A stretch of 64,000 nucleotides of DNA, taken from the NCBI GenBank assembly GCA_017993235.1, contig JAGONC010000005.1, forward strand, positions 1-64,000, given 5' to 3'. Origin of the DNA: Lentimicrobiaceae bacterium. Its GTDB lineage: Bacteria; Bacteroidota; Bacteroidia; Bacteroidales; JAGONC01. This document shows, in pieces, positions 6,579 to 21,857 of the stretch (positions are counted from its first letter, which is position 1; every line of letters begins with the position of its first letter). The notes under the pieces were generated by a model that worked only from the letters and a program-made list of their open reading frames with translations, was not told the origin of the DNA and made no database searches. The position numbers were made by a program, and so were the translations under genes.

Positions 6579-7640
6579 TCACCGGGTGTAATTTCTTGAA
6601 TCCCCCCAATCATCCAGATGGATCCTTGTGCCGTCGGGCAGTGCTGAGCTGATCCTGGCGATAAGCTCCGATGCTTCCAGCAGGACCGGTTTTCCCTGAT
6701 AGATCAGGTAATCCTCACGATACCGGACAGGGGTAATGTTCGGCATAAGAACGTTGGCCCCTGCCCTGAACGCCATTGACCTGGCATCCGGATTCAGCAC
6801 ATCCAGTGCAGTGGACGCAGCAATATTGATATTTTTCATGATCAGGCGCAGAACAGCGATCATCAGAAGGCTTTTTTCCAACCGTTTTTCTACCGGCCAC
6901 AAGCTGTCCTTCTCAGCATAGAGCGGTGTCATTTCATGCTCGACATAAGGTCCCATTCCCACCATGTCGACATCGATGTCCCTTAAAAACAGCAGGTCGT
7001 AAGCCAGGTCCCCGATGGTTTGACCGGGAAGTCCGATCATCACTCCGGTTCCCACCTGGTATCCGGTTTCTTTCAGAGCTTGAAGGGCATTGAGGCGGTT
7101 GTCGTAAAGATGGCTGCCATCGCGGGGATGGATCTTTCGGAACAGATCGCGGTTGGTGGTCTCAATCCTCAGCAGATAGCGATGCGCACCACTGTCGGCC
7201 CACCGGCGGTAGGTTTCCCGGTTCTGCTCCCCGCAGGATAAGGTGATCCTCATCCCATTACCGGATATATCCTGAATCTTCTTCAGTAAATGTTCAATGC
7301 GCTGGATGAAAACCCGGTCGGTCCGCTCCCCTGACTGGATGACCAGTGAAGTGTAACCTTCTGCCATGGCATGCCCTGCCAGTTCCAGAATTTCAGCATC
7401 GGGGATATCGTACCGGTGAACACCGCGGTTGCCTCTCCTGACACCGCAGTACAGGCAATTTTTCCTGCAGATGTTCGATAGTTCGATCAGACCCCTGACA
7501 TAGATCTTTTCTCCCGCATAAGTTTGTCTTATATCACAGGCTCTGGAAAAGACCTGTTCTTTCTCACGGTCTGTTTCCACTGAGAGTAACCGGATGATCT
7601 GATCCAGGGTAAGGTCATGATGATCAATGGTCTCATCCAT
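6579..7640 (-). CDS. hydE: [FeFe]-hydrogenase H-cluster radical SAM maturase HydE
   Basis: A radical SAM enzyme that helps make the 2Fe subcluster, probably acting on the product of HydG before assembly on HydF. The radical SAM cluster motif CRKNCLYC follows RGLIELSN near residue 55, then the family sequence GVRRGNRGVHRYD. ATG 7640 gives 353 residues, the usual HydE length, and overlaps the hydF stop by 8 bp. A further ATG at 7691 would add 17 residues and overlap hydF by 59 bp, which is less likely. It is the last gene of the hydrogenase operon. Confidence 0.93.
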   Translation of the reverse strand: MDETIDHHDLTLDQIIRLLSVETDREKEQVFSRACDIRQTYAGEKIYVRGLIELSNICRKNCLYCGVRRGNRGVHRYDIPDAEILELAGHAMAEGYTSLVIQSGERTDRVFIQRIEHLLKKIQDISGNGMRITLSCGEQNRETYRRWADSGAHRYLLRIETTNRDLFRKIHPRDGSHLYDNRLNALQALKETGYQVGTGVMIGLPGQTIGDLAYDLLFLRDIDVDMVGMGPYVEHEMTPLYAEKDSLWPVEKRLEKSLLMIAVLRLIMKNINIAASTALDVLNPDARSMAFRAGANVLMPNITPVRYREDYLIYQGKPVLLEASELIARISSALPDGTRIHLDDWGDSRNYTR

Positions 7641-8853
7641 TGGATCCCTGATGGGTTGTAAAGGGAGCTGTAACCCGGTGGAATATGCCATTCATATAGG
7701 CAATGGCCAGACCGTAGTTGGACACCGGTACCCCTGCATCAATGGCTGGTTTCAACCGGTTAAGAAGCTGTTTGCGGGTAACCATACATCCTCCGCACTG
7801 GATGATCAGGCTGTACTTCCTGATATCTCCCTGAATCGGTTCAAGCCCGGCCACGACGTCGACCTCAATGTTCTTCCCTGTGTAATCCCGAATCCAACGG
7901 GGGAGTTTATAACGGCCAATATCATCGCAATTCACCTGATGCGTACACGACTCCAGGATCAGCACCCGGTCACCGTCTTTCAGTTGATCCAGGTAAGGGG
8001 TGCCTTTCAGGTATTGAGTAAAATTCCCCTTCCTGCGTGCCATTAAGATACTGAAACTGGTCAGGGGAACCGTCTCCGGTACCATATCCTTCACTTTGCT
8101 GAATACCTGGCTGTCGGTGATGGCCAGTGCAGGTCGGATACCCGATGTCCGAAAGAATTGTTCGACCTGATTTTCCTTCAGCACAATGTTGATGGCATCA
8201 TGGTCAAGCACGTCCCTGATCACCATTACCTGAGGCAGGATCATCCTGCCGTCAGGCGCTTCCTCGTCAATGGGGGTGATGAGGACAATGTAGTCGTTTT
8301 TGTGAATCATATCGCCGATCAGCGTAGATTGCTGATAGGCTGTATCCGGGATGACAGCCCGCAGGGCTTCGATCACCTCCAGCAGGTTGTCGTTGTGAAA
8401 CGTGCTGAAGCGGATCACCCCTGATCCGGATTGTTCCTTTATCTGCTCCTGCGTCGCCGGGAGGATCGCATCCTTGTCTTCCTTGTTATGCACGATCAGG
8501 TAGGGAATTTCCCATTCACCGAACTGGCGGATCAGTTTCATTTCCTCCTCTCCAAACCGGTTCCCGTCGATCAGTAGGACTGCGCAGTCGACGGTCCTGA
8601 GCACTTCCATGGTTTTGCTGACCCGTTTACTTCCCAGTTCCCCAACATCGTCGATACCGGCGGTATCGATCACAATGGCGGGCCCGATTCCGAAGATCTC
8701 GATGGATTTCCTGACCGGATCGGTTGTAGTCCCTGCCTGATCCGACACAATGGCAATTTGCTGGTTTACCAGCGCGTTGATGAAGGAACTCTTACCCGTG
8801 TTCCGCCGCCCGAAGATCCCGATATGGGGTTTCGTTTCTCTGCCTCTGGTCAT
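7633..8853 (-). CDS. hydF: [FeFe]-hydrogenase H-cluster maturation GTPase HydF
   Basis: The scaffold GTPase that carries the 2Fe precursor to apo-HydA. The N-terminal GTPase domain shows P-loop GRRNTGKSS near residue 15, then GTTTDPV and DTAGIDD. The C-terminal iron-sulfur domain has CTH, a 47-residue spacer and CGGC, matching the family CxHx(46-53)...CxxC pattern. The residue just before CGGC is Gln where His is common. At 406 residues it is the normal length. It lies downstream of hydG after a 96-bp gap filled with two short tandem repeats, and overlaps hydE. Confidence 0.95.
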   Translation of the reverse strand: MTRGRETKPHIGIFGRRNTGKSSFINALVNQQIAIVSDQAGTTTDPVRKSIEIFGIGPAIVIDTAGIDDVGELGSKRVSKTMEVLRTVDCAVLLIDGNRFGEEEMKLIRQFGEWEIPYLIVHNKEDKDAILPATQEQIKEQSGSGVIRFSTFHNDNLLEVIEALRAVIPDTAYQQSTLIGDMIHKNDYIVLITPIDEEAPDGRMILPQVMVIRDVLDHDAINIVLKENQVEQFFRTSGIRPALAITDSQVFSKVKDMVPETVPLTSFSILMARRKGNFTQYLKGTPYLDQLKDGDRVLILESCTHQVNCDDIGRYKLPRWIRDYTGKNIEVDVVAGLEPIQGDIRKYSLIIQCGGCMVTRKQLLNRLKPAIDAGVPVSNYGLAIAYMNGIFHRVTAPFTTHQGSNG

Positions 8854-8902: not shown

Positions 8903-8951
8903 GACTGTTGACTGCTGACTGTTGACTGTTGACTGCTGACTGCTGACTATT
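8903..8951. repeat. Seven tandem 7-mers GACTGYT
   Basis: Seven copies of a heptamer run head to tail: GACTGTT or GACTGCT six times and GACTATT last. The array abuts the stop codon of hydG and occupies most of the gap before hydF. Short simple arrays of this kind could vary in copy number by slippage and alter the spacing between the two maturase genes in the transcript. Confidence 0.9.
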
Positions 8952-10380
8952 AAAAGTAAAGATCCCTCTCTCCCTGCCTTATCCTTTCCATCCGTTCTTC
9001 CAGTTCCTTCTTCCCCTCTGATGCTTCCATGCCATCCAGGTTCTTTTGGATCAGCGCCCAGCCTTTTTCGCGGGTAGCGGGCGGAGCATAGTCGGACAGG
9101 TATTCGGCCAGGGTAAGCAGGGCATTGGGCGTACAGAAACGTTTGATGAACCCGGGCACCGAGAATTCCATAAAATGCTCACCGGTACGTCCTTTCCTGT
9201 AACAGGCCGTACAAAAGGAAGGGATATAATCCTTATGGATCAGCTCATTGATCACCTGGTTGAGCGAACGGTCGTCGTTGATCAGGAATTGCTCCAGGTT
9301 CAGGTTCTGTATGTTTTTACGCTCCTCTTCTGCATAGGCGCCCAGTTCGAGGCGTGTACCGCCGTCGATCTGGGAGCATCCGAACTGGAGCACCTCATCC
9401 CTTACATGGGCAGGTTCCCTCGCTGTGAGGATCATCCCGGTATAGGGCACTGCCAGCCGGAGAATGGCAATGAGCCGTACAAACTCCTCGTTAGATACCC
9501 TGAACCTTTCATCTATCTGATAATCCGATGCATCCTGCACTCTTGGGAAAGAAATGGTATGAGGCCCCACATTGAAACAGGCTTCCAGGTGGCTGGTATG
9601 CCGAACCAGTGCCATCACTTCAAAACGCCAGTCATAGAGCCCCAGCAATGCGCCGATACCCACGTCATCAATGCCGGCCTCCTGGGCGCGGTCAAGAGAT
9701 ACCAGCCGGTAGGTATAGTCCTTCTTCCTTCCGCTGGGATGGTACCAGGTGTATGCCTCCGGATGGTAGGTTTCCTGAAAGATCTGGTAGGTTCCGATCC
9801 CTGCCTGTTTGATCGTCCGGAATCCCTCAACATCCATCGGTGCTGCATTGATATTCACTCTGCGGATCTCACCGTTACCCTTTTTCACCTGGTAAACGGT
9901 CCGAACCGTGCTTGCAATATATTCCGGTGTGTAGGAAGGATGCTCTCCATAAACCAGGATCAGCCGTTTCTGTCCTTCATCTTCCAGGGCCTTCACATTT
10001 TCAATCAGCTCATCCTGGGTGAGGGTTCGCCTTACCGCTTGCCGGTTCGATGCCTTGAAACCGCAGTATTTGCAGTTGTTGATGCAGGAATTGCCCACAT
10101 ACAATGGGGCAAAGAGTACGATGCGCTGACCGTACACCATCTCCTTGAGCCTCCTTGCGCCTTCCTTGATGGCACCGATCATCTCAGGATCCTCTGCCTT
10201 GATGAGGAGGGCAACTTCTTCCAGGGATAAACGGTTCTTGCTCAGCGACCGGTCAATGATGTGCCTGACCTTTTCCAGGGTTGGCTGAGCTTGGTTGATA
10301 TATTCCCAGATCTCATCGGGATCAATGAAAGGTTTCCCTGATATATCCTCGATACGGTATTTTTCCGGAGTGAATTTCAT
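8950..10380 (-). CDS. hydG: [FeFe]-hydrogenase H-cluster radical SAM maturase HydG
   Basis: A tyrosine lyase that supplies the CO and CN ligands of the H-cluster. The radical SAM cysteines are C99, C103 and C106 in SCINNCKYC, next to the family sequence GFKASNR. The C-terminal auxiliary cluster motif is an exact CX2CX22C beginning CTACYRKGRTGEHFMEF, a hallmark of HydG that separates it from ThiH. At 476 residues it is the family length. Its ATG overlaps the stop of the upstream regulator gene by four bases (ATGA), suggesting translational coupling. Confidence 0.96.
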   Translation of the reverse strand: MKFTPEKYRIEDISGKPFIDPDEIWEYINQAQPTLEKVRHIIDRSLSKNRLSLEEVALLIKAEDPEMIGAIKEGARRLKEMVYGQRIVLFAPLYVGNSCINNCKYCGFKASNRQAVRRTLTQDELIENVKALEDEGQKRLILVYGEHPSYTPEYIASTVRTVYQVKKGNGEIRRVNINAAPMDVEGFRTIKQAGIGTYQIFQETYHPEAYTWYHPSGRKKDYTYRLVSLDRAQEAGIDDVGIGALLGLYDWRFEVMALVRHTSHLEACFNVGPHTISFPRVQDASDYQIDERFRVSNEEFVRLIAILRLAVPYTGMILTAREPAHVRDEVLQFGCSQIDGGTRLELGAYAEEERKNIQNLNLEQFLINDDRSLNQVINELIHKDYIPSFCTACYRKGRTGEHFMEFSVPGFIKRFCTPNALLTLAEYLSDYAPPATREKGWALIQKNLDGMEASEGKKELEERMERIRQGERDLYF

Positions 10381-11528
10381 TGGAGGAGGATTATGTCCGT
10401 TGTTTCTGCATTTTTCATCAACGTAACGGTAAAAGAGGTCCCCACATCGGGTTTACTGGTCACCTGGACTTCCCCGGCGTACAGATCCGCAAGCCTTTTC
10501 ACGATCGATAAGCCCAGGCCGCTTCCTGTGATGTTCTTGGTTTTTACATTCTTGATCCTGACAAACTCCTGGAACAGTTTTTCCTGGTCCTCTTCCGACA
10601 TCCCGATGCCGGTGTCTTCCACCTTGATCATGACCCTGTCGTCCGTTCCTTTAACATGAACATACACCTGCCCTCCCTCTTTGTTATATTTAACGGCATT
10701 GGAAAGGAGGTTGTTCAGGATGATCTCAATCTCAGCACTATCTCCATTAAGGTAACAGGGTTCTCCATTATCATAGTAGATCCTGACGTTTTTCTGGATC
10801 GCCATGGGCTCCATGGAATGAATGGCCATTTTGGTTATTTCCGACACATCGATCTTTTTGATTTCCCGCTGCTTCTTTCCAGATTCGAGTTTGGTCAGAT
10901 CCAGCAGGTCCATGATCAGGGTCCGCATCCCTTTCAATCGCTCGATGCTCCGGTTGATCATGACCTCATAATCATCGATCCTGTCGCCCACCTGCTTTTC
11001 CTTCATGATCTGAAGGTACCCTTCGATCGCATTGATCGGTGACTTGAGCTCGTGGGAAAGCACGGACAGGAACTGAAACCTGACCTCTTTTCCCTCTTTG
11101 TGCAACTGACGGGTCATCCGCTTGAGGAACAGGTGCTTGGTGATCCCTTCCATGGCCACCTTTAATTCATCAGGAGTAAAGGGTTTAGGGATAAAATTAT
11201 AGGCTCCGATATTAGTGGCCTTCACGGCCAGATCCAGAGAGGCATATGATGTGATCATCATGACCTGCACATCGTATTGCTTCTTGTTGATATATTCCAG
11301 CACATCAATGCCGTTGATACCCGGCAGTTTATTATCCAGCAGGATGATATCCACCGGCATGGATTCGATGATCTCAATGGCCTTTTCACCCGTTTCGGCA
11401 TCGATGAGCTCAAACTGGAAATCCTCTTCCATGAAAGGGTACCCGACAGAAAAATTCCGCAGGATCCTGTTGATTCCCGAACGGATTCCGGGTTCATCAT
11501 CAACGACCAGTACTTTTAACTTTTCCAT
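10377..11528 (-). CDS. Hybrid response regulator-histidine kinase (REC-HisKA-HATPase)
   Basis: A 383-residue cytoplasmic protein. Residues 1-125 are a receiver domain (VLVVDDEPG at the start, IILLDNKLPGINGIDVLEY with the phospho-acceptor Asp, FIPKPFTPDEL with the conserved Lys). It is joined directly to a HisKA domain with SVLSHELKSPINAIEGY near residue 160 and an HATPase domain with NNLLSNAVKYN and GSGLGLSIVKRL. There is no transmembrane or other sensor segment, so its input is probably a phosphoryl group passed to the receiver. It sits between the single-domain regulator and hydG, suggesting it belongs to the hydrogenase phosphorelay. Confidence 0.9.
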   Translation of the reverse strand: MEKLKVLVVDDEPGIRSGINRILRNFSVGYPFMEEDFQFELIDAETGEKAIEIIESMPVDIILLDNKLPGINGIDVLEYINKKQYDVQVMMITSYASLDLAVKATNIGAYNFIPKPFTPDELKVAMEGITKHLFLKRMTRQLHKEGKEVRFQFLSVLSHELKSPINAIEGYLQIMKEKQVGDRIDDYEVMINRSIERLKGMRTLIMDLLDLTKLESGKKQREIKKIDVSEITKMAIHSMEPMAIQKNVRIYYDNGEPCYLNGDSAEIEIILNNLLSNAVKYNKEGGQVYVHVKGTDDRVMIKVEDTGIGMSEEDQEKLFQEFVRIKNVKTKNITGSGLGLSIVKRLADLYAGEVQVTSKPDVGTSFTVTLMKNAETTDIILLQ

Positions 11529-11551: not shown

Positions 11552-11938
11552 TCACAGCTGCAATAATTTATTGATCTCACGGTGGAGCTGGTCAGGCCTG
11601 ATGCCTTTCTCCAGGTAAAGATCCGCCTTGATCCAGTTCTTTTCCTCTTCTGTGTCCAGTCCGAAGATCATTCCGGTCTCTGCCGTAACGGCAGTGGCAA
11701 TGATGACCGGCACATCAGGGTATTTCATCTTGAATTTATAGCTCAGGATGAATCCGCTGTCTTTATTCTCCATCATCAGGTCGAAGATGGCAAGGTCAGG
11801 TTTCATCTGCTGGATGATCTCCTCTCCTTCCTTCTGACTTTCAGCGGTTATGGTTTCAAATCCAAAACTTTCCACATGGAATTTCATCAGGTTCAGTGAA
11901 TCGGGATCATCATCCACGATCAATACTTTTTTGGTCAT
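11552..11938 (-). CDS. Single-domain response regulator (REC)
   Basis: A 128-residue stand-alone receiver. The acidic pocket is in KVLIVDDDPDSLNL, the phospho-acceptor is in LAIFDLMMENKDSGF, and YLEKGI takes the position of the conserved Lys loop. There is an extra segment (TGMIFGLDTEEEKNWIKADL) before that loop. It has no output domain and so probably relays phosphate between the two kinases encoded on either side. It starts 6 bp after the hydrogenase-like kinase gene. Confidence 0.88.
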   Translation of the reverse strand: MTKKVLIVDDDPDSLNLMKFHVESFGFETITAESQKEGEEIIQQMKPDLAIFDLMMENKDSGFILSYKFKMKYPDVPVIIATAVTAETGMIFGLDTEEEKNWIKADLYLEKGIRPDQLHREINKLLQL

Positions 11939-11944
11939 GATAGG

Positions 11945-13969
11945 TTAATTTAATTGGTTTAACACGCGTGGTAACCGGATGGTAAAAGTGGTTCCTGTGG
12001 GGCCTTGGGCCGGGTCCGCATTGGATGCCACGGTGATCTGCCCACGGTGCATTTTTATGATTCCGTAAATCAAGGGTAAACCCAATCCTGTTCCTTTACC
12101 CAGTTTTTTTGTAGTAAAGAAAGGAGTAAAGATCTTCTCCATATTTTCCCGGGTGATTCCGGCGCCTGTGTCACTCACTTTAATTTCGATGGTTTCCTGG
12201 TCGCCCGACAGGACGATATTCAGCATCCCGCCATCGGGCATGGCTTCCACGGCATTCTTTTCCAGGTTGGTGAGTACCTGCATCATCTGATCCTGATCGA
12301 TCATGGATTCCGTGTCTTTTGCAGTGCATTCGAACGTAACTGTAATTCCGTCGGACTTGATGATGGACTGGATGCTTCGGTTAATGAAGTCCTTCATGTT
12401 GGTAGGCTCCAGTTTGACCTGGTTTTTCCGGGCAAAATTGAGCAATCCGCCAACGATGCTCTTGCATCGGCTGGCCTGTTCAGCGATCAGTTCAAGATCC
12501 TTACGGATCGGATCGTCGGGTCTTGACTCATCGATCAGGATATTGCTGTACATAGTAATCACACCCAGGGGATTATTGAGTTCGTGGGCGATTCCTGCCG
12601 ACAGTTGCCCCATAGTTGCCATTTTCTCGGACTGTTTCAGTGCCTGCTGCGCTGTCGCGAGCTTTTCGTTGGAGAAATTCAGTTCTTCGATCGACTTGTG
12701 CAATTTCTCAATGGTGTAGGGCAGGCACATTTCGGTCTCTGCCAGTCCTTCCAGGATCGCAATAGCGTGTTCTTCACAGGTATCATAGCCACAGGCTCCG
12801 CAATTCAGGTGATCGGCCGGGTCCTTTTTCCCCATGCGAAGGAGCACATTGTCGATTTCTTCCAGGTTGGGGAGAGGAATACGCCGGTCGGCCGGTTTGA
12901 AGGATTTGCTCAGATCGATCCCGCTGAACTCGTCCATATCTTTCATCCATTGTGCGTGTCGGATATCCGACATCTTTTTGCTGGCATACCGGCTGATCTC
13001 CTTTCGTCGGATATATCGCTGACCGTTTCGTGACATACCGGGTCCCATGATGCATCCTTCACAGCAAAGCAGCTGGAGGTGGTGGGTTTCCTTGAGCTCT
13101 TTCCCGAACTGGCGTATGGCATCCTTGAACTGAGGTTTTCCTTCGGCGATGAGTATGTTCCCGTTGCACAGGTCATCCTCCTTATTCATCGACTGGAGCA
13201 GTCCCCTGCTCAAGGGGAAAATGGCTCCCTTTCCGGCATGGGGAGGATCAAAATCGGAGGCAGCAGCCTGCTGAAGTTCATCCGGGTGAAGGTCAAAAAG
13301 CTTTCTGAGTTCCTCGAAGGTTATCACTTCATCCACTTCTGAAGTTTCTGCTTTTTTTGCGATACAGGGCCCGATAAAGACCAGTTTGATATGCTCTCTG
13401 AATTTCTTTCTGGCCACACGGACCGTGGCGACCATGGGTGAGACAACAGGTGCCAGGTAAGGTACCAATTCCGGATTATAGTGTCGGATGTAGTAAACAA
13501 TGGCAGGGCAATCGGAACTGATCATCATCGGGGTATCCTTCCTGTCGATCAATCGTGCATATTCCCGGGCAACGAGATCAGCCCCGAAAGCCACTTCCAT
13601 TACGTGGTCAAAGCCCAGTGCCCGAAGTCTCCCCACAAATTGCCTGTGGTCGCTGAATTCGGTGAACTCAGCCGGAAAACTGGGAGCCACAAGGGCAACC
13701 ACGGTTTCAGAAGAAGAAAGAAGATCCTGTACCTGACGGACCTGGTTCACATACACCTTTGCCTGCTGGCTGCACACCACAACACAGTTCCCACAACCGA
13801 TGCAGCGCTCACTGATCACTTCCGCCTGTCCGTTGATGATCCGGATCGCCTTCACAGGACATTCCCTTACGCACGTATAGCACACCCTGCACCTGTCCTT
13901 GACCGTATAGACCAACTTATCCCTCACCGGAGCACTCATAGGTAATATGGTTTCTTTCCCTTCCTTCAT
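11945..13969 (-). CDS. Hydrogenase-like Fe-S sensor histidine kinase
   Basis: A 674-residue fusion. Residues 25-68 hold a 2x[4Fe-4S] ferredoxin (CRVCYTCVRECP, CIGCGNCVVVC). Residues 88-330 are an [FeFe]-hydrogenase large-subunit-like domain in which the four H-cluster cysteines are kept (C154 in SSDCPA, C202 in FIGPC, C302 and C306 in LCCEGC). The neighbouring proton-transfer cysteine of TSCCP is D153, and the GGGQ end of L3 is changed. Residues 388-416 are an Fe-S domain (CGACGYDTC). After a coiled coil come HisKA (H462 in AHELNNPLG) and HATPase (GKGTGLGLPLIYGI). There are no membrane spans. It most likely senses H2 or redox state for the operon rather than catalysing turnover. It begins 2 bp after hydA. 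Confidence 0.9.
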   Translation of the reverse strand: MKEGKETILPMSAPVRDKLVYTVKDRCRVCYTCVRECPVKAIRIINGQAEVISERCIGCGNCVVVCSQQAKVYVNQVRQVQDLLSSSETVVALVAPSFPAEFTEFSDHRQFVGRLRALGFDHVMEVAFGADLVAREYARLIDRKDTPMMISSDCPAIVYYIRHYNPELVPYLAPVVSPMVATVRVARKKFREHIKLVFIGPCIAKKAETSEVDEVITFEELRKLFDLHPDELQQAAASDFDPPHAGKGAIFPLSRGLLQSMNKEDDLCNGNILIAEGKPQFKDAIRQFGKELKETHHLQLLCCEGCIMGPGMSRNGQRYIRRKEISRYASKKMSDIRHAQWMKDMDEFSGIDLSKSFKPADRRIPLPNLEEIDNVLLRMGKKDPADHLNCGACGYDTCEEHAIAILEGLAETEMCLPYTIEKLHKSIEELNFSNEKLATAQQALKQSEKMATMGQLSAGIAHELNNPLGVITMYSNILIDESRPDDPIRKDLELIAEQASRCKSIVGGLLNFARKNQVKLEPTNMKDFINRSIQSIIKSDGITVTFECTAKDTESMIDQDQMMQVLTNLEKNAVEAMPDGGMLNIVLSGDQETIEIKVSDTGAGITRENMEKIFTPFFTTKKLGKGTGLGLPLIYGIIKMHRGQITVASNADPAQGPTGTTFTIRLPRVLNQLN

Positions 13970-13971
13970 GG

Positions 13972-15696
13972 TTACAACATCACATCACGTTTATTATAGC
14001 TTGTATGAAGCAATTCATGACTTTTATGTCCGAGGGGTTCTCCAAGGAACTCCTGGTATAATTCGATCACTTCAGGATTCTTGTGCGACATTTTGATGGT
14101 TTCCTGGTCGTCGATGGCATAGAGCGACCTCATACGGGCAAGGATATCCGACTCTCCGCAGCCGACACGCTGACCTCCTCCGGCCACGCATCCACCCGGA
14201 CAGGCCATCACTTCAATGAAATGAATGTCGTTCCGGCCGCCGTGGATCTCCTCCAGTAAAAGATGAGCATTCTTCAGACCGCTGACCACCGCCACACCCA
14301 GCTCCAGATCACCGATACGGATACGGGTTTCCTTCCTTCCCCTGAATCCCCTTATTTCAGGGATCCGGAAACTGACCAGGTCCTTTCCCGTAAGCTTAAA
14401 ATAGGCTGTGCGGATGGCAGCTTCCATCACACCGCCCGTGTTGCCGAAAAGTTTCCCGGCAGAGCTTCTCACCCCCAGGGGCGAGTCGGCGGTTTCGGGA
14501 TTCAGCTTCTCGATCTCTATCCCATAAAGCCTGATCAGCCGGATGAGCTCCCGCGTCGACAATACGGCGTCAACGTCGGTGATCCCGCGGTGTGTCATAT
14601 TCTCCCGCTGTGCCTCGAATTTCTTGGCCACGCACGGCATGATCGACACCGAATAGATCTGATGGGGATCCTTTTGTTCCTTTTCGCTGATATAGCTCTT
14701 GACCACGGCTCCCAGCATCTGCTGCGGCGATTTGCACGTCGAAAGGTTGGGGAGCATGTCATGGGCAAATTCCTCTGCATACTTGATCCAGGCAGGGCAG
14801 CAGCTGGTGATCATCGGCAATACACCGTTGTTCTGAATGCGGTGGATCAGTTCAGCCGATTCTTCCATGATCGTAAGGTCAGCCGAGAAAGAAGTATCAT
14901 ACACCCTGTCGAACCCTATCTTGCGGAGCGCTGCATTGAGCAGGCCGTTGAGGTCGGCACCTGGTTCCAGACCAAACGCCTCTGCAATCGAAACCGTTAC
15001 CGCCGGGGCATACTGCACGATCACCATCTTATCCTTATCATTCAACGCCATCTGGACTTCATTGATGTGCGGTTTTTCCGACAGGGCTCCCGTCGGGCAT
15101 ACCAGGATGCACTGCCCGCAGTTCACGCAGCTGGAAACGTTCAATCCCTTGTTGAAAGCCGTGCCGATGACCGACCGGCTTCCCCGGTTGATGTAATCAA
15201 TGGCCGAGACATCCATCACTTCTTCGCAGACTCTTACACATCTGCCGCAAAGGATGCATTTGTCAGGATCGCGGACAATGCTGAGGCTGGAAAGGTCTTT
15301 GTGGTGATCATTTTTCTTTCCGCTGATCCTGCGTTCCACCACATTATGTTCACCGGCAAGATCCTGAAGGGTGCACTTTCCGTTTCGTACGCAGTAAAGA
15401 CAATCATCAGGATGATTCGATAAAAGCAGTTCCACGATCACCTTCCTGGATTCCACCACCCGGGGTGAGTTTGTCTGTATTTTCATCCCTTCTTCCACAG
15501 GATAGGAGCAGGAGGTAATCAATTTTCCGTTCGACTGGTTTTCCACCACGCACATCCGGCAGGAGCCGGATGGCAGATAATTCTTCATATGGCACAGTGT
15601 GGGTACCCTGATCCCATTCCTGGAAAGGACGTCGATCAGCAGTTCGCCCTTACTCGCCTCTATCTTCTTGTTGTTGATTTCAATTGTGCAATCCAT
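13972..15696 (-). CDS. hydA: [FeFe]-hydrogenase catalytic subunit HydA
   Basis: A 574-residue M3-type catalytic subunit. Residues 1-80 form a [2Fe-2S] domain (CHMKNYLPSGSCRMC). A His-ligated cluster motif follows (HPDDCLYCVRNGKC, H95), then two [4Fe-4S] motifs (CILCGRCVRVC, CVNCGQCILVC). The H domain has all three signatures: L1 TSCCPAW with C299 and C300, L2 MPCVAKK with C355, L3 MACPGGCVAGGGQ with C499 and C503. All catalytic residues are intact. With HydB and HydC it would form a cytoplasmic NAD-linked, possibly electron-bifurcating, complex interconverting H2 with NADH and reduced ferredoxin. Bifurcation is inferred from family and gene order and is not proven by sequence. Confidence 0.97.
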   Translation of the reverse strand: MDCTIEINNKKIEASKGELLIDVLSRNGIRVPTLCHMKNYLPSGSCRMCVVENQSNGKLITSCSYPVEEGMKIQTNSPRVVESRKVIVELLLSNHPDDCLYCVRNGKCTLQDLAGEHNVVERRISGKKNDHHKDLSSLSIVRDPDKCILCGRCVRVCEEVMDVSAIDYINRGSRSVIGTAFNKGLNVSSCVNCGQCILVCPTGALSEKPHINEVQMALNDKDKMVIVQYAPAVTVSIAEAFGLEPGADLNGLLNAALRKIGFDRVYDTSFSADLTIMEESAELIHRIQNNGVLPMITSCCPAWIKYAEEFAHDMLPNLSTCKSPQQMLGAVVKSYISEKEQKDPHQIYSVSIMPCVAKKFEAQRENMTHRGITDVDAVLSTRELIRLIRLYGIEIEKLNPETADSPLGVRSSAGKLFGNTGGVMEAAIRTAYFKLTGKDLVSFRIPEIRGFRGRKETRIRIGDLELGVAVVSGLKNAHLLLEEIHGGRNDIHFIEVMACPGGCVAGGGQRVGCGESDILARMRSLYAIDDQETIKMSHKNPEVIELYQEFLGEPLGHKSHELLHTSYNKRDVML

Positions 15697-15723: not shown

Positions 15724-17673
15724 TTATTCCCTGATAAAAATAGCACCGAATTTACAGGCTTCCTCGCAGCTGCCGCAACCGATGCATTTCTCCTCCACGA
15801 TGAAATGAGCTGTTTTTTTAGCACCGATGATGGCGCCTGTGGGACATTTCTTCGAACATACGGTACACCCGGTGCATTTATCCACATCAATCCAGAAGGT
15901 CCGCAGGTCAGTGCAGACTCCTGCCGGGCATTTGCGTTCATAGATATGGGATTCATACTCATCCCTGAACCAGCGCAGTGTGCTCAGTACGGGATTGGGA
16001 GCCGTTTGGCCCAGTCCGCAGAGAGAGGTTTCCCGGATCACCTTCCCCAGCTTTTCCAGCTGGATGATGCCACGAAACCGCGTCAGTGGCTGGTTGCCCG
16101 AGTTGACTGGTTTGGAGGTGATGCTTTCCAGGATCTCCAGCATACGGCGAGTCCCTTCACGACAGGGAATGCATTTCCCGCAGCTTTCGCGCTGGATAAA
16201 ATCCATAAAAAACTTGGCCACATCCACCATGCATGTATCTTCATCCATAACCACCAAGCCCCCGCTTCCCATCATAGCTCCGGCACGGATCAGCGATTCG
16301 TAGTCGATCTCGATGTCGAGGTTGGCCTCCGTGATACAACCACCCGAAGGACCCCCTATCTGAACAGCTTTGAATTTCTTTCCGTTGCGAACGCCACCGG
16401 CGATCGTATAAATAATATCGCGTAGCTTCGTCCCCATCGGTATCTCCACAAGTCCGGTACGACTAATCTTCCCCGACAGGGCGAACACCTTGGTTCCCTT
16501 GCTGGTAGTGGTACCCATTGAACTAAACCATTCCTCTCCCTTCTCTATAAGGGTGGACAGGTTGGCCAGGGTTTCCACGTTGTTGATCACAGTAGGCTTT
16601 CCGAAGAGGCCGCTGACAGCCGGGAAGGGAGGTCTGGGACGTGGCATCCCGCGCTTGCCTTCGATGCTGTGCATCAGTGCTGTTTCTTCTCCGCAAACAA
16701 AAGCCCCCGCACCCATCTTGATGATGATGTCAAAATCGAATCCTGTACCGGCAATGTCCTTACCCAGCAATCCATACTGGCGGGCATGGTCCAAGGCGAT
16801 TCGCAGCCTTTGGATGGCCAGCGGGTATTCGGCACGGATGTACACATACCCTTTGGAAGCGCCGATACCGTATGCAGCTATGGCCATCCCTTCGATCAAC
16901 CGGTAAGGATCCCCCTCGATCACTGCTCTGTCCATGAAAGCACCGGGGTCTCCTTCATCCGCGTTGCAGATCAGGTACTTCTGATCCGCCTGGGTCTTGT
17001 TGGCAAACTTCCACTTTCTGCCGGTGGGGAAACCACCACCGCCACGTCCACGCAAGCCGCTGATCTCCACCTTGTTGCATACCTCCAGCGGTGTATACGT
17101 ATGCAGAACCTTCAGCAGGCTCTGATATCCGCCGTGGGCAATGTATTCCTTGATGCTGACCGGGTCAATGACGCCGCAATTCTTCAGTACAACCCGTGTC
17201 TGATGTGCAAAGAACGGATGCTCATCCAGGTAAGGGACGCTATCCCATTCTCCGGCCGACTCGCCCCTGAATTGCCCCAGGATATCATCTTCCACAGGCT
17301 CTCCGTTCCAAACGGAATCAAGCAGAGGATTTACCTTATCGGCAGTGACCTTCTGAAAGCACAGACGGTTCCTGCCAGGCAGCTGAACATCCAGCAGAGG
17401 CTCCGCCGAGCACATGCCAATACAGCCTACCTGTACAATGTCCGCATCGATTTCTTTTTCCTTTATATATTGTCGAACCGCCTGCAGGGTCTTACCAGCT
17501 CCCGCACCCAGCCCGCACGTCCCCGAACCGATGAAGATCACCGGCTTAAGAAGGTGTTCCCTCCGCAAGGAACCGAATAGTTCCTTCCCGGGAACGGAAT
17601 GAAGAGCCGGTTCCTGGCTCAGCAGCCTGTCCAGCAACAATTGCCGGACATCTGTTATTGTTTCGCTGATCAT
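15724..17673 (-). CDS. hydB: NADH-binding hydrogenase subunit HydB (NuoF-like)
   Basis: A 649-residue flavoprotein subunit that links the hydrogenase to NAD(H). It begins with a thioredoxin-like [2Fe-2S] domain (GTCGLGAG near residue 52, GCIGMCSAEPL near residue 83). A NuoF core follows, with FMN/NADH loop GLRGRGGGGFPTGRKW near residue 206 and AGAFVCGEETALMHSIEG, an SLBB domain, and the cluster motif SCGKCIPCREGTRRM. It ends with two [4Fe-4S] motifs (CTGCTVCSKKC, CIGCGSCEEAC). The extra N- and C-terminal clusters are the signature of HydB rather than respiratory NuoF. It overlaps hydC by four bases. Confidence 0.96.
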   Translation of the reverse strand: MISETITDVRQLLLDRLLSQEPALHSVPGKELFGSLRREHLLKPVIFIGSGTCGLGAGAGKTLQAVRQYIKEKEIDADIVQVGCIGMCSAEPLLDVQLPGRNRLCFQKVTADKVNPLLDSVWNGEPVEDDILGQFRGESAGEWDSVPYLDEHPFFAHQTRVVLKNCGVIDPVSIKEYIAHGGYQSLLKVLHTYTPLEVCNKVEISGLRGRGGGGFPTGRKWKFANKTQADQKYLICNADEGDPGAFMDRAVIEGDPYRLIEGMAIAAYGIGASKGYVYIRAEYPLAIQRLRIALDHARQYGLLGKDIAGTGFDFDIIIKMGAGAFVCGEETALMHSIEGKRGMPRPRPPFPAVSGLFGKPTVINNVETLANLSTLIEKGEEWFSSMGTTTSKGTKVFALSGKISRTGLVEIPMGTKLRDIIYTIAGGVRNGKKFKAVQIGGPSGGCITEANLDIEIDYESLIRAGAMMGSGGLVVMDEDTCMVDVAKFFMDFIQRESCGKCIPCREGTRRMLEILESITSKPVNSGNQPLTRFRGIIQLEKLGKVIRETSLCGLGQTAPNPVLSTLRWFRDEYESHIYERKCPAGVCTDLRTFWIDVDKCTGCTVCSKKCPTGAIIGAKKTAHFIVEEKCIGCGSCEEACKFGAIFIRE

Positions 17674-18140
17674 ATCGTTTCCTCCCTTTTTCTGTACTGC
17701 TCAATAATTTCCGCCACTTTGGCCTCGCTGACCTGTGCATGGAATTCGCCGCTGACATTGATTACCGGCGCCAGTCCGCAGGCACCGATGCAGGCGACGA
17801 TCTCTATGCTGAACAGGCCATCACGTGTGGTCTGCCCTGCCTTGATGTGCAATAATTTTTCCAGGTGCTCAAGAACCGTGGCGGAACCCAGCACGTGGCA
17901 GGCGGTTCCGCGGCAGACCTGGATGTGATACCTGCCGGTGGGCTGAAACCTGAACTGATTATAAAATGTTGCAACACCATAAATGCGGCTCGATGGAATA
18001 CCCAGGTGCCTTCCTACTTCCACAACGGCTTCTTCCGATAGATACCCCTCTTTCTCCTGGATCTCCTGGAGAATCGGGATCAGGCTGTCATGCCTTCCTT
18101 TTTCATGAATTTCCAGTACTTCTGCAATTCCGGGTTTCAT
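17670..18140 (-). CDS. hydC: Hydrogenase [2Fe-2S] subunit HydC (NuoE-like)
   Basis: A 156-residue NuoE-type thioredoxin-fold protein that carries electrons in the HydABC complex. The N-terminal helical part (LIPILQEIQEKEGYLSEEAV, then GIPSSRIYGVATFYNQF) and the cluster ligands in CRGTACHVLGS and CIGACGLAPV are as expected. Its stop overlaps the hydB start (ATGA). It lies 62 bp below the first regulator gene of the operon; that gap is AT-rich with repeated TTGATT-like words. Confidence 0.95.
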   Translation of the reverse strand: MKPGIAEVLEIHEKGRHDSLIPILQEIQEKEGYLSEEAVVEVGRHLGIPSSRIYGVATFYNQFRFQPTGRYHIQVCRGTACHVLGSATVLEHLEKLLHIKAGQTTRDGLFSIEIVACIGACGLAPVINVSGEFHAQVSEAKVAEIIEQYRKREETI

Positions 18141-18202: not shown

Positions 18203-18715
18203 TCATGACTTAGCTATCTGTCTGCCCATGTGCAGTTTAATCTCACTGAGGAGTTTCTTGGCATCGACCGGTTTCCTGAGAAATCCGCTGACCGGCAGCC
18301 AGATCGACCTTCCGTCTTTTGCACGGTAATCCACTCCCGCTTTCCCGCTGATCACATCCCTGAGTAGGATCACCTGCAGTTCCCTGTACCGTGCATCCGA
18401 TCTGAACTCGCGTGCCATTTCCCTGACACTCTCCTTGGTGGTCTCCAGTACATCAATGGAAGTCTGCATCAACACCGGGATCTTCTTCAGCGCTTCATCC
18501 TCACTCAGTTCCTTGGCTAACTCAAAACCTTCGTAATGCGTGGTCATCATCACATCCAGGATCGCCATATCGGGTTTTTCGTTATGGGCCAGCTTCAGGC
18601 CTTCCTTTTTATCAAAGGCCGACAGAACCTCATACCCTTCATTTTCCAGAATGGTGGTAAGAACATTGATCACATCGATATCATCATCGACGATTAAAAT
18701 TTTTTGTGCTTTCAT
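18203..18715 (-). CDS. Single-domain response regulator heading the hydrogenase operon
   Basis: A 170-residue receiver-only protein. Acidic residues lie in KILIVDDDIDVINV, the phospho-acceptor in MAILDVMMTTHYEGF, and the Lys in FLRKPVDAKKLL. It is longer than a standard receiver (about 120) because of a roughly 40-residue segment between helix 4 and the Lys loop (from SVREMAREF to RSIWLPV). It is the first gene after the operon promoter and precedes hydC. It could receive phosphate from the hydrogenase-like kinase. There is no DNA-binding domain, so any transcriptional effect must be indirect. Confidence 0.88.
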   Translation of the reverse strand: MKAQKILIVDDDIDVINVLTTILENEGYEVLSAFDKKEGLKLAHNEKPDMAILDVMMTTHYEGFELAKELSEDEALKKIPVLMQTSIDVLETTKESVREMAREFRSDARYRELQVILLRDVISGKAGVDYRAKDGRSIWLPVSGFLRKPVDAKKLLSEIKLHMGRQIAKS

Positions 18716-19105: not shown

Positions 19106-19744
19106 TTATGTCCTGACCAGTCCATTCTTCACCGCATAAAGCACCAGATTCGGTGCATTCTTAGCTCCTGTTTTTTCAAAGAGGTGCGCGCGGTGTCCAT
19201 CCACAGTACGCTGACTGACTCCCAGAAATCTGGCGATTTCTACATTGGAATAGCCCTTGCAGATCAGGTCAAGAACTTCCAGTTCCCGTTCCGACAGCCT
19301 TACATCAGGATCCTTTGGCCTGGTCTTCTGGTATTTGGTGGCGGAGGCGATGAATTCCTCCGAAAAATAGGTATCATCATTCAGGACGGTTTCAATGGCC
19401 CTTTTCAGCTCCTCTGTGGTGGTTTTTTTGAGCAGGAAGCCTGCCGCTCCGGCCTCGATCATCTCATTGAAATAGGTCACCTCCTCGAACATGGTCAGTG
19501 CGATGATCTTAATGGCAGGATATTTTTCGGTCACTTTTTTGGTGGCTTCGATGCCATCCATCACGGGCATACGGATATCCATAAAAATGATGTCCGTTTG
19601 CACCCTTTTGAGCAGATCCAGCAGCTCATTACCGTTGGAGGCTTCTGCCACAACCTTCACTTCATCGATCTCATTCAGGATGGTGCGGAGTCCCTTGCGG
19701 AAGATGATGTGATCATCCACGATCATTACTTTGACGATTTCCAT
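19106..19744 (-). CDS. LuxR/NarL-family response regulator
   Basis: A 212-residue DNA-binding regulator. The receiver domain has KVMIVDDHIIFRKGL, the phospho-acceptor in IIFMDIRMPVMDGIEA, and FLLKKTTTEEL with the Lys. The output domain is a GerE-type helix-turn-helix, LSERELEVLDLICKGYSNVEIARFL followed by VSQRTVDGHRAHLFEK (the two parts together form the recognition unit near residues 150-195). It is the partner of the kinase encoded 1 bp upstream. Its targets are unknown; the hydrogenase operon promoter lies immediately downstream in the same direction. Confidence 0.93.
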   Translation of the reverse strand: MEIVKVMIVDDHIIFRKGLRTILNEIDEVKVVAEASNGNELLDLLKRVQTDIIFMDIRMPVMDGIEATKKVTEKYPAIKIIALTMFEEVTYFNEMIEAGAAGFLLKKTTTEELKRAIETVLNDDTYFSEEFIASATKYQKTRPKDPDVRLSERELEVLDLICKGYSNVEIARFLGVSQRTVDGHRAHLFEKTGAKNAPNLVLYAVKNGLVRT

Positions 19745-19745
19745 G

Positions 19746-21857
19746 CTACCGATTATTGTCCGGGATCCTTACCGATGCGATCAGGAACATTCCCTTGCCC
19801 GGCTCTGAATTAATGTCGCAGGATCCCTTGATGGTTTTCATTTTGTTGATGATGTTGTTAAGACCGTACCCGGCATTTCTCTTTAACTCGGCGTTCAGGT
19901 CAAATCCTATACCGTTATCACGGTAATAAAGGATGATCTGATTGTCGAAGCTCTTCAGGTCGATCTTGATATGATCGGCCCTGGAATGCTTCAGTGTGTT
20001 GTTGATCAATTCCTGGACTGACTGGTAGAGGATGGTTTCCTCAAGGCCGCGGTGATCGATGGTGTATTGCTGGGTATTCACTTCGATCTCAACGGCATTC
20101 GTTGCTCTGATATACGAAGTGAATTCATGGATAGCGGCGGCCAGCCCGAAATCCTGCAATAATGAAGGCCGGATGTTGTTGGAGATCTCCCGTGTAGATT
20201 TAATGGCCATGTCCACCAGCTCTTCCACATTACCGATGGCCTCTTCATTGCTGATTTTCTTAAAATTAGCTTTTTTCAGGATATCGGTGTACAGTTTTAT
20301 GGTGGACAGGATGGGGGCCAGCCCGTCGTGCAGGTCAGCCGCGAAACGCTTGCGCTCCCTCTCTTCCGTCTGGACGATCGCACGCAGGATCTTTTCTTCG
20401 ATCTCCTTTCGTTCAGAGATATCCCGGGCAATGGTAAGGATAGCCTTTTCCCCCCTGTATTCGATGATCCGGCTCTTCATTTCCACCGGGATCACCTTGC
20501 CGTTTTTCGCCACATTCTCCGACTCATAACGGTACCTGCCCAGCATGCGTATGGTCTCCAGGTTTCGTTCAACCTTATCCAGGTATTTTGGAGTCTTGAT
20601 ATCCCTGAAATTCATCTCCTTGAATTCCGCTGGGCAATAGCCAAGGTTATCGCAGGCTACCTGATTCACTTCCAGGAAGTTACCCTCCATGTCGATGACG
20701 AATATATCATCGCTGCTGTTGTTGAACAGGGTTTTGAAATGTTGTTCCGACTGAGCCAGGGCGCTTCTGGTGCTGTCGAGCTGGGCCTGGGATGTATCCA
20801 GTTTTGCCAGGAATTTTTTGACATTTTCAATGGTAAGATAATAGACAAAGATGGAAAAGGCAATGATGATGGTGAAGGAGAGGATCAGCGAGTTGAGGAT
20901 GATCTTGTTAAGGACCTGTGCGGTCTCTTCTTTTACAGGTAAGCTGGCTCCCACATAGAATTTGAAGTCCTCATAGTAATCAAAGGCGGTCATATATTTC
21001 GACCGGTCAGGATTGTCCCTGTCGACGATAAGCCCTTCCTTCAGACGGGTAATCCTGTCAAACCATTCCTTGTTGCTGCATTTTTCTCCCTGAAGCGAAG
21101 GATGGATGATATAGTTTCCCTGTTCATCCATCACGAATGGAAATCCGGATTTGCCGATTTTCAGGCTCAGCAGAATGTCACGCAGTTTATCCAGATCTTT
21201 CTCCTTATCTCCCACGTACAGCATGCCAATGACTTCACCGTGGGCGATGATGGGCTCATAGGCAGTGATGTACCAGTCGTGCACCACAAATGACCTTCCG
21301 AAATAGATTCTTTGGTTGCGGATCGTGTCGGCCACGCTGGAATCAAGGGGGATATAGGTCCCCACAGCCCTTGTGCCATCCGACTGAAGAACGTTGGTGG
21401 CGATCCTTACGAATCCGCTGTCGATTTTCTGGAAAAGGGTCACGGTGGCGTCTGTCAGCAAATGCACGCGGTCGATGAAAGCGTCGTTCTGAAACAGCTC
21501 CTGACCATCGAGTGACCATTTCTGAAGCTTGGCCTGATGGATGGCATGGGTAACCTGGTTGGTGACAGGGATCACAGATTCCTCAGGGCTTATCTCCAGC
21601 GAGTCCCGGTAAAACAACTCATGGGCAACCTTCAGGTCGCGGTAAACCTTATCCAGCTTCAGGGCGCGCTCGCGTTCAAACATCCTGACGATGGTCTGTA
21701 CCTCGGTGGTCAGATTGCGTTCCAGGGAGCGGTACATGTTGCGCCGTGTCATCCCGACCGTGATGAGGGTGATGACCATCGCCATAAGGATGATACCTGT
21801 CACAATTGGAACATAAAAACGGGTCTTGACCGGTATACGGTTCCACAGAAAAGACAT
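19746..21857 (-). CDS. Membrane sensor histidine kinase (Cache-PAS-HisKA_3)
   Basis: A 703-residue membrane kinase. A transmembrane helix at residues 14-36 is followed by an extracytoplasmic Cache-type domain of about 280 residues (GRSFVVHDWYITAYEPI, GEVIGMLYVGD, FPFVMDEQGNYIIHPSL) and a second helix near residue 320. Then come a PAS domain (DDIFVIDMEGNFLEVNQ), a PAC motif and a HisKA_3 dimerisation segment with the phospho-accepting His in RFAADLHDGLAPILS. The HATPase domain ends in GYGLNNIINKMK. It would sense a small extracellular or periplasmic molecule and phosphorylate the LuxR-type regulator next to it. Confidence 0.93.
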   Translation of the reverse strand: MSFLWNRIPVKTRFYVPIVTGIILMAMVITLITVGMTRRNMYRSLERNLTTEVQTIVRMFERERALKLDKVYRDLKVAHELFYRDSLEISPEESVIPVTNQVTHAIHQAKLQKWSLDGQELFQNDAFIDRVHLLTDATVTLFQKIDSGFVRIATNVLQSDGTRAVGTYIPLDSSVADTIRNQRIYFGRSFVVHDWYITAYEPIIAHGEVIGMLYVGDKEKDLDKLRDILLSLKIGKSGFPFVMDEQGNYIIHPSLQGEKCSNKEWFDRITRLKEGLIVDRDNPDRSKYMTAFDYYEDFKFYVGASLPVKEETAQVLNKIILNSLILSFTIIIAFSIFVYYLTIENVKKFLAKLDTSQAQLDSTRSALAQSEQHFKTLFNNSSDDIFVIDMEGNFLEVNQVACDNLGYCPAEFKEMNFRDIKTPKYLDKVERNLETIRMLGRYRYESENVAKNGKVIPVEMKSRIIEYRGEKAILTIARDISERKEIEEKILRAIVQTEERERKRFAADLHDGLAPILSTIKLYTDILKKANFKKISNEEAIGNVEELVDMAIKSTREISNNIRPSLLQDFGLAAAIHEFTSYIRATNAVEIEVNTQQYTIDHRGLEETILYQSVQELINNTLKHSRADHIKIDLKSFDNQIILYYRDNGIGFDLNAELKRNAGYGLNNIINKMKTIKGSCDINSEPGKGMFLIASVRIPDNNR

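Follow-up and report, generated by a model that had tools for sequence, protein, structure and literature searches.

Aspartate at the proton-relay position of a predicted kinase-fused sensory [FeFe]-hydrogenase throughout Bacteroidales

The hydS gene of a Lentimicrobiaceae bacterium encodes a histidine kinase fused to an [FeFe]-hydrogenase domain in which the proton-relay cysteine is replaced by aspartate (D153), and this aspartate is kept across nearly all homologues sampled in the order Bacteroidales. By its motif and domain features, HydS falls among the group C-like sensory hydrogenases that are fused to a histidine kinase. We consider it reasonably probable that HydS senses H2 or redox state in the cytoplasm and, as a kinase, either controls the NADH-dependent trimeric hydrogenase encoded in its operon or reports on that enzyme, with D153 taking the place of the relay cysteine (C299 of CpI) as proton donor.

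Results

In the window (the whole 64,000-nucleotide stretch of contig JAGONC010000005.1 that was analyzed), hydS is an open reading frame with exact coordinates 11945-13969 on the minus strand, with an ATG start and a product of 674 aa. Pfam places Fer4 motifs at residues 21-70, the H-domain (Fe_hyd_lg_C) at residues 89-310 (13040-13705; E = 8e-44, in agreement with structure matches), a PF04060 FeS domain at residues 388-417, HisKA at residues 453-516 (12422-12613) and HATPase_c at residues 558-668 (11966-12298), and the same scan detected no PAS domain; the fusion to HisKA/HATPase claimed from the letters alone is thereby confirmed. The cysteines of the two N-terminal [4Fe-4S] motifs (C27, C30, C33, C37 and C56, C59, C62, C66; 13772-13891) are kept in 79 of 81 homologues, the other two being gapped, and those of the C-terminal FeS motif Cx2Cx4Cx16C (C390, C393, C398, C415; 12725-12802) are invariant in all 81. 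As expected of a sensor histidine kinase, the HisKA domain carries a phospho-acceptor histidine, H462, and the ATPase domain has N, G1, F and G2 boxes, all of which are conserved across the family. An AlphaFold model of HydS built with 70 sequences (mean pLDDT 87.7) matches solved [FeFe]-hydrogenases, best of all CbA5H, and separately the ZraS kinase; among CpI-type PDB entries the H-domain is matched best by 6GLZ, the C299D variant.

HydS was aligned to CpI and to the HydA protein of the window, whose numbering equals that of CpI in the aligned relay and ligand region. The alignment pairs C154 (13508-13510) with C300, C202 (13364-13366) with C355, C303 and C306 (motif C303-E-G-C306, 13052-13063) with C499 and C503, and D153 (13511-13513) with C299, so that both claims of the sequence-only reading about this pocket, four H-cluster ligands present and the relay cysteine exchanged for aspartate, held. 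The four ligand cysteines are invariant in the 81 family members and in all 113 aligned members of the order. The third ligand motif is CxGC throughout the HydS family, one residue shorter than the CPGGC of group A. At other CpI positions the pocket has diverged: M353 is replaced by Gly (G200), M497 by Leu, S319 by Ala (A173) and R286 by Leu, and E279 falls in a gap of the HydS alignment, the mapping of the E279-R286 stretch being uncertain because the loop is shorter in HydS. The group A residues E279, S319, R286 and M353 are not kept. At the position of CpI E495, HydS residue 299 (13073-13075) is Gln in the genus of the window and Glu in most relatives; exchange of the matching E289 in TamHydS lowers activity (PMC10407848). 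Asp occupies residue 299 in six of eight sequences with Ser or Asn at the relay position, a clade-bound pattern that is suggestive of covariation between the two positions.

The distribution of the relay residue was followed at two scales. Homologous loci were collected with scan patterns that avoided the relay position, which gave 80 loci, from Bacteroidota as well as numerous other phyla, and 393 genomes of the order Bacteroidales were surveyed, from which 119 distinct HydS sequences were read. The nearest named relative, a Bacteroidota MAG, shows 93% identity, and the aspartate is present in two other genomes of the genus. In the order as a whole the relay residue is Asp in 110 sequences, Ser in five and Asn in four, never Ala or Pro; Asp thus accounts for 92% of the sequences, down to approximately 50% identity, and is the only residue in 49 of 53 families of the aligned order set. 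Such wide sharing (110 of 119) rules out that D153 is accidental or a sequencing error. Conservation of the relay column is 93%, compared with a domain median of 70%, and lies above that of 75% of the domain. Elsewhere in Bacteroidota the 25 members from other orders have Pro (14), Ala (8) or Ser (3) and none has Asp. In other phyla the residue is mostly Thr or Ser, with Ala, Pro or Ser in Ignavibacteria-type members, and Asp was absent from the 34 Thr/Ser-type and 14 Ignavibacteria-type rows; Cys was not seen at this position among the HydS relatives from the scanned loci. In a HydS tree built without the relay column, one change between Asp and non-Asp suffices and the Asp clade has fair, not strong, support (SH-aLRT 92), which fits a single origin of the aspartate within the sampled sequences.

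The gene lies in an operon of one direction with the order nuoE-nuoF-hydA-hydS-RR-RR/HK-hydG-hydF-hydE, all on the minus strand and with short gaps or overlaps between genes. Profile searches identify the nuoE-like hydC (17670-18140) and the nuoF-like hydB (15724-17673), and hydA (13972-15696) encodes a canonical group A enzyme with a full proton path that scores above the cut-off for the NADH-dependent group A6 (NF040763; 786 bits, cut-off 765). Its end is separated from the start of hydS by 2 bp, as the sequence-only reading had it in placing hydS directly after hydA. Downstream follow a single-domain response regulator of 128 aa (11552-11938; Pfam) with D53 as its likely phospho-acceptor, a response regulator-histidine kinase hybrid (RR/HK; 10377-11528; Pfam), and the H-cluster maturase genes hydG (8950-10380; TIGR03955), hydF (7633-8853; TIGR03918) and hydE (6579-7691; TIGR03956), each over its cut-off. 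This arrangement recurs: hydA is directly upstream in 59 of the 71 kinase-fused loci with enough flank, and RR/HK and the small regulator lie downstream of hydS in 66 of 66 and 50 of 66 loci, respectively. In the small regulator D10, D11, D53 and K111 are invariant across the 50 homologues detected, and the receiver Asp and Lys and the kinase His are invariant except for one gapped row. The genome encodes only two PF02906 proteins, HydA and HydS, with no third, and one [NiFe]-type PF00374 protein. No gene for a DNA-binding output was found adjoining hydS.

Discussion

Assignment of HydS to the group C kind is based on the four H-cluster cysteines, the two N-terminal [4Fe-4S] motifs, the Cx2Cx4Cx16C motif, the non-cysteine residue at C299 (D153), the glycine at M353 (G200), the kinase link and the operon link to a group A enzyme. 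HydDB includes both kinase-linked and phosphatase-linked group C classes (PMC5037454). Of the two classes to which the sequence-only reading pointed for comparison, groups C and D, only the former agrees. Group D (M2e) was rejected on L257, Q299 and G200, which occupy the positions of the group D path residues E252 and E289 and of Ser/Thr (at M353), positions that we infer from PMC10407848 and PMC11803613. The M2f subtype of TmHydS was set aside given that no PAS domain follows the FeS motif. Group A is excluded by D153 at C299, the gap at E279, A173 at S319, G200 at M353 and a TIGR02512 score of 100 bits (cut-off 406), and group B, considered on account of a TIGR04105 match, by a score of 187.7 bits (cut-off 450).

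Several known systems resemble HydS in part. TmHydS of Thermotoga maritima (group C, M2f) shares the two [4Fe-4S] clusters, the H-domain, the C-terminal Cx2Cx4Cx16C motif, Gly at M353, the lack of Cys at C299 and an operon with a group A enzyme, but has a PAS domain, Ala131 and, at M497, Ser267, where HydS has HisKA/HATPase without PAS, Asp153 and Leu. TamHydS (group D, M2e) has the C-terminal FeS motif, Leu at M497 and likewise no Cys at C299, and differs at the three positions on which group D was rejected. BfuT of Hydrogenedentota is an H-domain-histidine kinase fusion adjoining genes for trimeric A3-type hydrogenases and is filed as HydDB group C3 (PMC11406978). One surveyed locus (L070) comes from the Hydrogenedentota genome given there as the BfuT example (PMC11406978); the best-matching proteins of three sampled Hydrogenedentota loci have Thr, Ser or Asn rather than Asp, and the accessible text on BfuT neither discusses the relay residue nor describes RR and RR/HK genes. 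The pairing of a kinase-fused sensor with a trimeric hydrogenase is thus already known, as is loss of the relay cysteine in sensors, where it is usual. What we did not find described is the combination of an aspartate fixed across an order with a hydS-RR-RR/HK cassette. The regulatory [NiFe]-hydrogenase with its kinase HoxJ, a slow H2 sensor feeding a two-component system that controls hydrogenase, works as we propose for HydS, although its metal site is unrelated and its kinase is a separate protein.

In the proposed mechanism, H2 would react at an H-cluster built by HydE, HydF and HydG of the operon. The state of this cluster and of the N-terminal clusters would bring about a conformational change in the H-domain and in the FeS linker domain, and a long helix would relay the change to HisKA/HATPase, altering phosphorylation of H462. 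From there, as conserved residues and synteny suggest, the phosphoryl group would pass to D53 of the 128-aa regulator and to the receiver of RR/HK. D153, placed at C299 by alignment, would act as proton donor and acceptor of the adt amine by analogy with engineered enzymes, and we read it as a selected, tuned proton donor for the H-cluster, a reading in which the exact effect of the residue is something we infer. A further and more tentative proposal, which we regard as plausible rather than probable, is that the carboxylate introduced by this natural, order-wide Cys-to-Asp change fixes the pKa of the H-cluster and its resting state such that switching of the kinase occurs at a defined H2 level, making these proteins a sensor subgroup tuned via its proton donor.

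The engineered enzymes in question are CpI C299D (PDB 6GLZ, 8PVM), CaHydA C298D and CrHydA1 C169D, which likewise place Asp beside the same ligand cysteine; they retain the whole group A path, whereas HydS lacks the other path residues and its substitution is natural and fixed. In saturation mutagenesis of CaHydA, Asp alone of 19 replacements retained high activity, with kcat down 2-fold (PMC3485046), and CpI C299D and CrHydA1 C169D kept 30-80% of H2 release without accumulating Hhyd, the carboxylate of the former hydrogen-bonding the adt amine (PMC6226526). Uptake was 1-2% of wild type in CrHydA1 C169D (PMC6226526) and 0.02% in CpII C169D, within a range of 0.02-4% for Cys-to-Asp enzymes, in which the bias shifts to evolution (PMC9563086); for CaHydA the uptake figures disagree, a 2-fold loss (PMC3485046) standing against 4% in a later table (PMC9563086). 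Among sensory sequences in HydDB, Cys is at the relay position in only 17% (PMC10055695), so that its replacement is ordinary, and the characterized enzymes of groups C and D, which have Ala there, are slow. The TmHydS A131C exchange lowers activity (PMC10055695), and by analogy the relay position may lie outside the proton path that group C enzymes use. The main texts of the open-access literature yielded no description of a natural Asp at this position.

These data bear on what the aspartate signifies. The sequence-only reading took it as the mark of a sensor that binds H2 and hardly turns it over, a claim of which one half stands: turnover by HydS is probably slow, since HydS lacks the onward part of the group A proton path and since TmHydS and TamHydS are slow. 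That the aspartate itself signals near-inability to turn over H2 we hold to be unlikely, despite the slowness of the sensory hydrogenases studied so far, the lost path residues and the low uptake of the CrHydA1 and CpII variants, because Asp alone does not amount to a dead relay in published enzymes that keep their activity, CaHydA, CpI and CrHydA1 among them. Moreover, Ala, Pro and Thr, common in relatives, would serve equally if loss of turnover were selected, yet Asp is kept order-wide. Somewhat less probable again is that the relay position drifts freely in sensory hydrogenases and that Asp is a neutral founder state of the order. The variety of residues across the family (Thr, Ser, Ala, Pro, Asn), the sufficiency of one change on the tree and the good conservation of the flanking ligand-motif columns are all compatible with drift; the persistence of Asp down to approximately 50% identity, the restriction of exceptions to Ser and Asn and the conservation of the column relative to the domain argue for selection.

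Two other possibilities concern the protein as a whole, and both appear improbable. HydS might lack an H-cluster and be a redox or iron-sulfur sensor kinase on a hydrogenase fold, given that the shortened third motif and Gly at M353 alter the pocket and that ligands are missing from divergent paralogues of related genomes; against this, the four ligand cysteines are invariant in both alignments, and slow enzymes of groups C and D whose pockets are similar do acquire an H-cluster. Alternatively, HydS could be an accessory subunit bound to the HydABC trimer that gates or measures the enzyme instead of sensing H2 freely. While the tight linkage to nuoE-nuoF-hydA and the frequency of hydA directly upstream would suit such a role, no evidence of fusion or of an interface was found, and the complete kinase with conserved receiver partners favors two-component signaling.

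It is not yet settled how sensory [FeFe]-hydrogenases move protons and transmit signals, and the characterized members have no known partners (PMC13104023). In HydS the kinase is part of the same chain and conserved receivers adjoin it, so that H2-dependent phosphorylation can be assayed directly. At the relay position, members of the family naturally carry Asp, Thr, Ser, Ala, Pro or Asn. It has been proposed that the pKa of the relay residue determines the bias of the H-cluster, a model that these variants make testable in natural proteins; the order-wide swap is the same Cys-to-Asp change that, made by engineering, keeps protons moving.

Other Observations at Related Loci

Operons of the window's type have a gene for a 170-aa receiver-domain protein (RR170; 18203-18715, minus strand) preceding nuoE, which is missing where a second HydS-like gene occurs; RR170 might be an additional partner of the sensor cassette. 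A gene pair on the same strand immediately precedes the hydrogenase operon (19106-21857); it encodes a response regulator of the LuxR type and a sensor kinase of the membrane type, and could possibly provide a DNA-binding output for the operon.

The partner HydA differs between two sets of Asp-type loci. Where RR170 is present, as in the window, the proton path of HydA is intact in 11 of 11 loci, and where a second, divergent HydS-like gene is present it is changed in 14 of 15 with all four ligands kept, a contrast that represents a lineage difference rather than independent events because the tree places the window-type loci in one clade. The changed HydA proteins of these Bacteroidales operons (L045, L050, L051, L053, L054, L055, L056, L059, L094 and others) have Ala, Asp or Ser at the relay position and altered E279/E282, and judged by these residues HydA may be a slow, sensor-like subunit wherever such a second gene is present. 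The divergent HydS-like paralogue (L035, L039, L040, L043, L048, L050, L051, L054, L055, L058, L083, L094) is absent from the window genome, which has only its two PF02906 proteins. It lacks a kinase, lies on the minus strand at about 2.2-5.7 kb and mostly has Asn at the relay position; a PAS domain was detected in one of two copies scanned, and several copies have lost H-cluster ligands (YDEGC, GPVIAS).
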